From positions 1-64,000 of the forward strand of contig NZ_QPJY01000004.1 of NCBI RefSeq assembly GCF_003337735.1: 64,000 nucleotides of DNA, read 5' to 3'. The notes below the pieces were generated by a model. It ran no database searches. It saw only the letters and a list, made by a program, of their open reading frames with translations, and was not told the origin of the DNA. How positions within the stretch are numbered: the first letter of the stretch is position 1; each line of letters opens with the position of its first letter. This stretch comes from Thioalbus denitrificans (GTDB lineage Bacteria; Pseudomonadota; Gammaproteobacteria; DSM-26407). The translations under genes were made by a program, and so were the position numbers. Below, in pieces: positions 4,475 to 6,875 of this stretch.

Positions 4475-4972
4475 TCAGCCCTCGTCCTCGCGCACCGGCA
4501 CCAGCAGCACCGGGACCGGGGAGCGCTGGGTCACCTTGTGGGCCACGGAGCCGAGGAGCATCTCGCCGAAGGCGGAGTGGCCGTGGGAGCCCATGACGAT
4601 CACGTCGGCGTTGACCCGCTTCGCCTCCTTGATGATCGCCTCGGCCGGCTGCCCTGAGCGCACCAGGACTTCGCCGACCCGGGACATGCACACCGCCGCC
4701 TCGTCGAACTCCGTGGCGCAGAACTCCTGCAGCCGCTCGCGCAGCTCGGCCTTGAGCTTCTCCAGGCCCTCGGCGCGCAGCTTGTCCAGGGTGGTCTTGG
4801 AGACGTAGCTGTCCACCAGCGACTGGCCGAAGGTGCCCAGCGGCTCGAGGACACTGACCGCCACGATGGTGGCGTCGTGACGCTCCGCCATGGCCATGGC
4901 GTAGCGGAAGACATGGGGGCCCACGGGACCCACATCGGTAGCGTAGAGGATGGTCTTGATCTGGGGCAGCAT
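4475..4972 (-). CDS. Universal stress protein, UspA family
   Basis: A 165-residue single-domain Usp protein. The N-terminal strand MLPQIKTILYATDVGPVG carries the conserved Asp of the nucleotide-binding fold. The C-terminal motif G-x2-G-x9-G-S reads GSHG...GS near residues 131-145, followed by VTQRSPVPVLLVPV. That motif places it with the ATP-binding Usp proteins, which act in the cytoplasm in stress and anaerobic survival. The start ATG 4972 has GGAGAACAGG upstream. A sigma-70-like promoter (TTGTCC, 16 bp, TATACT) lies at 5034-5007, so transcription does not depend on the FNR box further upstream, which is cut off by an intrinsic terminator. Confidence 0.93.
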   Translation of the reverse strand: MLPQIKTILYATDVGPVGPHVFRYAMAMAERHDATIVAVSVLEPLGTFGQSLVDSYVSKTTLDKLRAEGLEKLKAELRERLQEFCATEFDEAAVCMSRVGEVLVRSGQPAEAIIKEAKRVNADVIVMGSHGHSAFGEMLLGSVAHKVTQRSPVPVLLVPVREDEG

Positions 4973-5006
4973 GGTCCTGTTCTCCGTCCGGCATCGATTT
5001 TATGCA

Positions 5007-5034
5007 GTATAAGCGGAACTTATCGGCGGACAAC
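5007..5034 (-). promoter_or_regulatory. Sigma-70-like promoter of uspA
   Basis: On the minus strand TTGTCC (5034-5029) and TATACT (5012-5007) are separated by 16 bp, 35 bp before the uspA ATG. This gives the gene its own promoter downstream of the terminator at 5097-5125. Confidence 0.5.
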
Positions 5035-5096
5035 AGCCGCACGGTTCCGGAGCCGACATGAAGGCGGTACGCCCGGATCCTGCGCTCGGGAGGGAC

Positions 5097-5125
5097 AAAA
5101 AAAAACCCCGCTGGAGAGCGGGGTT
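5097..5125 (-). terminator. Intrinsic terminator
   Basis: On the minus strand a 9-bp perfect stem (AACCCCGCT / AGCGGGGTT, 4-nt loop) is followed by nine T residues. It terminates transcripts coming from the 5130-5200 region before they reach uspA. Confidence 0.85.
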
Positions 5126-5165
5126 AAGACAGGAGATATGACCCTGCGGAAGAATTACCGTAGTC
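5097..5165 (-). ncRNA. Candidate anaerobically induced small RNA
   Basis: A perfect terminator lies about 65 nt downstream of the start predicted from an FNR-type box centred 41.5 bp upstream of about 5160. No ORF with a ribosome site fits between them. The predicted transcript has a single-stranded segment containing UCUCCUG, complementary to Shine-Dalgarno sequences, before its terminator hairpin. This is the layout of FNR-controlled small RNAs such as FnrS. The start site is inferred and the -10 element is weak. Confidence 0.35.
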
Positions 5166-5194
5166 AATCTTCCGGGAATGTTCCCCATCCCACA

Positions 5195-5208
5195 TTGACC
5201 TGGATCAA
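5195..5208. promoter_or_regulatory. FNR/ANR/DNR-type box
   Basis: TTGACCTGGATCAA on plus (TTGATCCAGGTCAA on minus) matches TTGAT-N4-ATCAA with one change. It lies 234 bp before nhaD on plus and 223 bp before uspA on minus. The nearer functional target is the short terminated unit at 5097-5165. Confidence 0.6.
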
Positions 5209-5441
5209 TAAAACCCCGGGATTTATTAAGGGAGTATTTCACTCCCCCCTCTTGTGCGCCGGGGCGACCCCCACCCGCTTCGAAAGAGCATGGCATTGGC
5301 ACGCGGGATTACGCTAGAATGCAGCGTTGCGCCGCAATAGATACCACAAAAACAACCAGTTAGACAACGGAAGCCGCTCGGCAAAGACCCGCCACGGGTG
5401 CGGCCGCCGCTTCCCGTCCTGCTCGAGAAGGAGTCCACACA

Positions 5442-6875
5442 TTGAACAGTGCGGTAGTCGCTCCACTGCTGGGGCTCATCCTCAGCCTGTTTGCGCCGGC
5501 GGCCGCGTGGGCCGCCACGGGCAACGCCGAGCCCCTCGATCTCACCCGAAGCGAGGTGGGCATATTCGCCCTGGTGATCTTCGTCCTGGCCTATGCGCTG
5601 GTGATGGCCGAGGAGTTCACCCACCTGCGCAAGTCCAAGCCGGTCATCCTGGCCGCCGGCCTCATCTGGCTCTCCATCGCCTGGTACTACTCCGTCCACG
5701 GCGGCCAGAGCGAGGAGGTCGCCATGGCGGTGCGGCACAACATCCTCGAGTATGCCGAGCTGTTCCTGTTCCTGCTCTCGGCGATGACCTACATCAACGC
5801 CATGGAGGAGCGGCTGGTGTTCGACGCCCTGCGGGCCTGGCTGATTCGCAAGGGATTCAACTACCGGCAGCTGTTCTGGATTACCGGCATCCTGGCCTTC
5901 TTCATCTCGCCGGTCGCCGACAACCTCACCACCGCCCTGCTCATGTGCGCCGTCCTGCTCGCGGTGGGCGCCGACAGCCCCCGCTTCGTGGCGCTGGGCT
6001 GCATCAACATCGTCGTGGCCGCCAACGCCGGCGGCGCCTTCAGCCCCTTCGGCGACATCACGACCCTGATGGTCTGGCAGAAGGGCATCGTGGATTTCTG
6101 GGATTTCTTCGCCCTGTTCCTCCCCTCGGTGGTGAACTTCGCGGTGCCCGCGGCACTGATGCACTTCGCCATCCCCGACATCTCCCCCGCTCCCAGCGAT
6201 GAGCGGATTCCCATGCGCCGCGGCGCCCGGCGCATCGTCGCCCTGTTCGCCGCCACCATCGTCACCGCGGTGAGCTTCCACAACTTCTTCCACCTGCCCC
6301 CGGTGCTGGGCATGATGACCGGCCTGTCCTACCTGCAGCTGTTCGGCTTCTACCTGCGCAAGACCCATGGCCGGGTACCGTCGGCGCATCCCTACAACCT
6401 CGAAGTGGCGGACAAGATGATCGGCGACGTGGTGCCCTTCGACATCTTCAACAAGATCGCGCGGGCCGAGTGGGACACGCTGCTGTTCTTCTATGGCGTG
6501 GTGGTCTGCGTGGGCGGCCTCGGCTTCATCGGCTACCTGGAGCTGGCCTCCCAGGTGATGTACAGCGACTGGGGCGCAACCCTCGCCAACGTGAGCGTGG
6601 GCATCCTGTCGGCCATCGTGGACAACATCCCGATCATGTTCGCCGTGCTGACCATGAATCCGGACATGAGCCACGGCCAGTGGCTGCTGGTGACGCTCAC
6701 CGCCGGGGTGGGCGGCAGCCTGCTCTCCATCGGTTCGGCCGCCGGCGTGGCCCTCATGGGCCAGGCCCGGGGACGCTACACCTTCTTCAGCCACCTGAAG
6801 TGGACGCCGGCCATCGCCCTCGGCTATGCCGCCAGCATCCTCACCCACATGTGGCTGAACGCGGCCCACTTCTGA
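5442..6875 (+). CDS. nhaD: NhaD-type Na+/H+ antiporter
   Basis: A 477-residue inner-membrane protein of the ion-transporter superfamily. It begins with a cleavable-looking signal (GLILSLFAPAAAWAA) and then about ten or more hydrophobic helices. Diagnostic NhaD stretches are ISPVADNLTTALLMCAVLL near residue 160, the NIVVAANAGGAFSPFGDITT loop near 185-205, and VDNIPIMFAVLTMNP near 395. The acidic Asp/Asn pairs in these half-helices carry the transported Na+ or Li+. The protein exports sodium in exchange for protons, typical of halotolerant or alkaliphilic proteobacteria. The start is TTG 5442 with GAAGGAG 8-14 bp upstream. No ATG near the N-terminus preserves the signal. Confidence 0.93.
   Translation: MNSAVVAPLLGLILSLFAPAAAWAATGNAEPLDLTRSEVGIFALVIFVLAYALVMAEEFTHLRKSKPVILAAGLIWLSIAWYYSVHGGQSEEVAMAVRHNILEYAELFLFLLSAMTYINAMEERLVFDALRAWLIRKGFNYRQLFWITGILAFFISPVADNLTTALLMCAVLLAVGADSPRFVALGCINIVVAANAGGAFSPFGDITTLMVWQKGIVDFWDFFALFLPSVVNFAVPAALMHFAIPDISPAPSDERIPMRRGARRIVALFAATIVTAVSFHNFFHLPPVLGMMTGLSYLQLFGFYLRKTHGRVPSAHPYNLEVADKMIGDVVPFDIFNKIARAEWDTLLFFYGVVVCVGGLGFIGYLELASQVMYSDWGATLANVSVGILSAIVDNIPIMFAVLTMNPDMSHGQWLLVTLTAGVGGSLLSIGSAAGVALMGQARGRYTFFSHLKWTPAIALGYAASILTHMWLNAAHF

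Follow-up and report, generated by a model that had tools for sequence, protein, structure and literature searches.

The intergenic region between two divergent genes of Thioalbus denitrificans, one of uspA type and one of nhaD type, contains both an FNR box and an intrinsic terminator, which raises the question of what is transcribed between them. We analyzed this region within a window of 64 kb, the whole stretch of DNA under study, to which all positions without a contig label refer. Probably, box and terminator delimit a free-standing small RNA gene on the minus strand, from which FNR would activate an RNA of ~65 nt; through its CUCC, this RNA would pair with the ribosome sites of mRNAs and repress them.

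FNR box and terminator between uspA and nhaD

The uspA-type gene for a universal stress protein (4475-4972, minus strand; Pfam Usp, 3.8e-29) lies 3' of the terminator. On the other side, a divergent open reading frame on the plus strand (5442-6875, start codon uncertain; Pfam CitMHS, 2.4e-35) encodes an antiporter that we take to be of nhaD type, following the naming in an earlier sequence-only reading of this DNA. The same reading had placed an FNR-type box at 5195-5208, followed on the minus strand by about 65-70 nt and a 9-bp hairpin with nine T residues, and had given uspA a sigma-70-like promoter of its own; our analysis confirmed these features. The FNR/ANR-type box TTGACCTGGATCAA (5195-5208, assigned to neither strand) agrees with the consensus at 9 of 10 positions and is the only exact match to TTGAY-N4-ATCAA in the 64-kb window. 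From box to hairpin the distance is 69 nt on the minus strand. The terminator hairpin, AACCCCGCT-CTCC-AGCGGGGTT (minus strand, 5125-5104), combines a perfect 9-bp stem with an open CUCC loop (5116-5113) and leads into a T9 tail (5105-5097), the first two T of which are paired in the stem. The promoter TTGTCC-16-TATACT of uspA (5033-5006, minus strand, 9 of 12 positions matched) is located downstream of this terminator.

Judged from its sequence, the genome makes use of such FNR boxes. Palindromic TTGAYNNNNRTCAA sites occur 34 times genome-wide, compared to a single occurrence of the reversed pattern that served as control. At C1:588599 the genome encodes an Fnr that scores above the NCBIfam cut-off. 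Two Fnr-type genes adjoin each other at C1:588464-590268 (L174); one FNR box precedes the first of them, and a second box follows closely on the other gene.

When stems of at least 8 bp followed by at least 7 T in 9 positions were searched on both strands, the terminator was the sole match in 64 kb, and each of 20 first-order Markov controls yielded 0. A loose scan returned 2 terminators in 2.6 kb with 1.5 expected; matches of this kind therefore mean little. Since no upstream gene needs a terminator between divergent genes, the hairpin most likely ends a transcript begun within the intergenic region.

The promoter does not settle the direction in which the box acts; the minus strand is favored by the terminator. 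On the minus strand, a weak -10-like hexamer, AAGATT (5166-5171), is placed at class II distance from the box; its score is equaled by 11% of background windows and also by GAGTAT (5232-5237), the hexamer at the corresponding plus-strand position. Because the -10 element is weak and equally good both ways, the box could also serve nhaD. It would then activate this gene on the plus strand, and the minus-strand terminator would merely stop stray or divergent transcription ahead of uspA. That FNR boxes can serve either side is in keeping with such an arrangement, as are the equal scores, but a leader of ~200 nt would be needed before nhaD and such a strong terminator implies regular transcription of the minus strand. 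Moreover, no FNR box was found just upstream of nhaD in 80 other nhaD loci, relatives of the gene having been found down to ~60% identity. We therefore regard activation of nhaD as unlikely.

A small RNA gene on the minus strand, the reading that we prefer, also has to be weighed against an FNR-driven leader with read-through into uspA. In such an attenuation system the real product would be anaerobic expression of uspA, which lies downstream on the same strand, and some Pseudomonas usp genes are ANR-regulated. However, the terminator is perfect, no alternative fold was seen for the short leader and uspA has its own promoter past the terminator. In addition, units elsewhere have other neighbors, being located after a tRNA gene or between truA-like and trpF-like genes. 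Attenuation thus appears quite unlikely.

The predicted RNA and known small RNAs

Class II spacing from the box suggests a start at ~5158-5165; with its end at the T run, the predicted small RNA would comprise ~62-68 nt (5163-5097, minus strand). The predicted fold of this RNA consists of a 5' hairpin of 5 bp, CAGGG-UCAUAUC-UCCUG (5146-5130), and the terminator hairpin, with -21 to -23 kcal/mol in total. The first hairpin carries the stretch UCUCCUG (minus strand, 5136-5130), whose CCUG part is paired; the mean unpaired probability of its CUCC is 0.29, and the CUCC of the terminator loop represents the fully open anti-Shine-Dalgarno copy in the predicted fold. With regard to a possible Hfq-dependent trans-acting sRNA, the candidate has a U-rich tail.

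The statement of the sequence-only reading that no ORF fits this region holds in one respect and not in another. Mechanical frames do cross it, on the minus strand at 5000-5302 (100 aa) and on the plus strand at 4877-5317 (146 aa), whereas the 58 aa read from a plus-strand ATG (5141-5317) match no Pfam family above the cut-off. The longer plus-strand frame contains AGGAG-AT-ATG at 5132-5143, a plausible ribosome site with start codon, and the 58-aa frame could thus be considered as coding for a small protein. This is very improbable: the gap between AGGAG and ATG measures just 2 nt, the frame has no family match and crosses the FNR box, and the minus-strand terminator would be left unexplained. 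The AGGAG-AT-ATG motif and its 58-aa frame (5132-5317, plus strand) lie exactly opposite the UCUCCUG of the RNA, which is probably a coincidence.

No Rfam family reached its gathering threshold in the window. The sub-threshold match with the lowest E value was RF02278, the Betaproteobacteria toxic sRNA family, with 27.9 bits and E 0.0013 over 511 bases; as the gathering score is 50 bits, the candidate is not a member of this family. Still, the double hairpin with a CU-rich stretch against the ribosome-binding site, a feature of RF02278, is present in the predicted fold, and the candidate may work like these RNAs without belonging to them. Rfam includes a PhrS model. In 4950-5460, the covariance-model matches with E values of up to 10 did not include FnrS and none was named PhrS, which places the candidate outside both families. 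The proposal of an FNR-induced small RNA like FnrS and PhrS at an unrelated locus is partly supported: an FNR-activated short RNA is the best explanation, with the qualification that the RNA falls outside these two and all other Rfam families at threshold.

To our knowledge, small RNAs under FNR control have been described in a few organisms only (FnrS, NarS, AniS). FnrS is about twice as long as the candidate, and PhrS is under ANR control. In enterobacteria, FNR activates the trans-acting FnrS, which in turn represses functions that the cell can spare when oxygen is lacking (PMC8139620). FnrS would share FNR control with the candidate, for which such control is proposed, and differs from it in sequence, with no match, and in locus. 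AniS of Neisseria meningitidis is an Hfq-linked, FNR-controlled sRNA made in oxygen limitation, as cited in PMC4423775, and its targets are described as elusive in PMC5362039. Here too the putative FNR control of the candidate would be alike, and there is no Rfam match and the locus is another one. PaiI of Pseudomonas, an RNA of 126 nt, is induced without oxygen and depends on ANR and NarXL, with ANR control probably being indirect (PMC8139620). Induction without oxygen, which applies to PhrS and PaiI in Pseudomonas, is what we propose for the candidate, although the latter matches no Rfam family at threshold.

In build, the candidate is closer to other RNAs. According to three accounts (PMC5688073, PMC4603805, PMC11722255), RF02278 comprises the 'double-hairpin RNAs' ncS03, ncS05, ncS27 and ncS62 of Burkholderia and the related S17 of Bordetella, which are 57-92 nt long and combine a CU-rich anti-ribosome-site stretch with a short first hairpin, a terminator hairpin and several copies per genome. 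All of these elements recur in the predicted build of the candidate. In RF02278 the anti-ribosome-site stretch is located in the free 5' end, whereas the candidate carries CUCC in a hairpin arm and in the terminator loop; moreover, FNR control is not described in the passages considered from these accounts, whereas the candidate has an FNR box. NmsRA and NmsRB of Neisseria are sibling sRNAs with UC-rich anti-Shine-Dalgarno stretches between and in stem-loops that repress TCA-cycle mRNAs (PMC5362039). Siblings with anti-Shine-Dalgarno stretches exist in both cases, but the NmsRs are arranged in tandem and have three stem-loops, and the passages considered from PMC5362039 do not report FNR control, in contrast to the FNR box of the candidate. 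By analogy, the best reading would be control in the manner of FnrS and AniS joined to a build and a proposed action on ribosome sites in the manner of RF02278 and the NmsRs.

Units of the same build in Gammaproteobacteria

A search for the uspA-nhaD DNA in one same-genus genome gave no match and is uninformative either way, as the contig ends at nhaD codon 121. With the sole same-genus contig ending inside nhaD, the box/terminator architecture was compared across Gammaproteobacteria instead. Taking uspA as anchor identified one distant homolog only in 56 genomes, with no equivalent unit beside it.

Within the own genome, a terminator follows at a distance of no more than ~110 nt for 3 of the 34 boxes, and UCUCC is present in two of these three, the window unit and a sibling on another contig (G000:C5:159628-159745, minus strand; L223). 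The sibling is located behind a tRNA gene and has a TATCCT -10 hexamer at class II spacing, a 47-nt body with GTCTCC (GUCUCC in the RNA) and a 9-bp terminator. It found no match in the same-genus genome. The third box, at G000:C4:177447 (plus strand; L180) and 3' of an efflux-type gene, has a TGCAAT -10 hexamer and a strong terminator 94 nt on, without UCUCC.

Across 369 genomes, the pattern Box-N40-70-TCTCC-N20-50-T6 occurred at 13 places outside the own genome and at 5 in the reversed control. With a hairpin filter, TCTCC retained 7 units including the window, whereas the control word CCTCT retained 0 of 7 places. As the TCTCC pattern alone is too weak, a motif-free search was used (FNR box-N74-104-GSNN-T6, i.e. 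a G-[G/C]-N-N-T6 tail). It returned 97 distinct places in the 369 Gammaproteobacteria, some of which may be coding, several being covered by long frames, and 19 of the 97 had a terminator hairpin of at least 6 bp. Merging tandem copies and removing the window left 17 bodies. Among these, the anti-Shine-Dalgarno word CTCC was the most frequent of all 256 four-base words (11/17), compared to 2.9 ± 1.5 expected from shuffles that keep base composition only (P 0.004 after correction for any word). Places without a hairpin contained it in just 8 of 78 cases (Fisher 7e-6), and GGAG was present in 0/17 hairpin-unit bodies. In hairpin units, the -10 hexamer placed at class II distance also scored higher (P 2e-4).

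For the window unit, the sequence shows the box, its spacing, the terminator and the lack of a recognizable protein, and the layout of box, CUCC and terminator recurs in other lineages: units with CTCC span ~10 families (G000, G037, G068, G124, G156, G264, G296, G298, G310 and G319), and an Rfam scan of them gave no match apart from neighboring tRNAs. These results bear on whether the UCUCCUG of the window could pair with ribosome sites, as had been suggested. In favor of it, CTCC is the top-enriched word in box/terminator units of 369 genomes; against it, CCUG is paired in the predicted fold, and enrichment in the class does not prove function for the window unit. They also bear on the explanation that the box and the terminator have nothing to do with each other, are adjacent by chance and delimit no functional RNA. 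In its favor, the 34 boxes amount to 68 flanks, among which a small number of terminators at up to 110 nt would be expected, and three boxes have one. Yet the terminator of the window is unique in 64 kb and placed between divergent genes, and chance would account neither for the class-wide enrichment of CTCC nor for the better -10 hexamers of such units. Chance adjacency is hence improbable.

The best-conserved unit is present in tandem in G124 (C6:60849 and 61157) and as a single copy in its sister G373 (C3:2026804). It features UAUUCUCC and a CCCGCCG terminator and falls into no Rfam family. In both genomes it adjoins a gene that is presumably truA-like, with a presumed trpF-like gene on the other side in G373, both names having been assigned by reading the sequences. 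Between CTGCTAAC and the T run the three copies are near-identical: a single base differs among them over the stretch that begins with CTGCTAACGG, includes UAUUCUCC and ends at the T run. The half-sites of the box are conserved as well, whereas the flanks diverge, both upstream of the box and past the terminator. A conserved body with diverged flanks is the pattern that would be expected of a selected RNA gene. Homologs of a unit from G298 were sought within its genus, where the box alone was matched.

Proposed action and wider meaning

From this anatomy we infer how the candidate RNA would be transcribed, depend on FNR, pair and act on targets. At low oxygen, FNR would bind the box at about -41.5 and activate the weak class II promoter. 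RNA polymerase would then produce a non-coding RNA of ~65 nt with two hairpins and stop at the terminator (5125-5097), ahead of the uspA promoter. The RNA would carry CUCC twice, first within the arm and loop of the 5' hairpin and again, fully open, in the terminator loop. Pairing of CUCC with the Shine-Dalgarno regions of mRNAs that are unneeded without oxygen may lower their translation.

The window unit and its sibling might moreover belong to a recurrent, unnamed kind of gammaproteobacterial RNA gene, a generalization that we put forward tentatively as possible rather than probable. Its members would combine an FNR class II promoter with a terminator-ended RNA of 60-80 nt carrying CUCC anti-Shine-Dalgarno seeds, would have arisen or persisted in ~10 families, sometimes as siblings, and could act as an oxygen-off brake on the translation of chosen mRNAs. 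If expressed, the window unit would extend the FNR-controlled sRNAs to a lineage that is unstudied. Should the pattern hold across the class, anoxic control by anti-ribosome-site RNAs would be far wider than Rfam shows, and the units could be found in each genome by a simple search for box, CUCC and terminator.

Some minor observations were made alongside. An ORF at 1936-2640 of the window (plus strand) resembles a tyrosine integrase of the integron type with an apparent internal deletion, as judged by sequence motifs alone. More units with FNR box, CUCC and terminator, outside Rfam, were seen in other gammaproteobacterial families (L238, L240, L259, L275, L286, L317, L207, L217 and L215). Finally, G298 has a third short FNR-box unit (C126:3259-3357, minus strand; L267) of ~50 nt without CUCC, which possesses a TAATAT -10 hexamer and a strong terminator.
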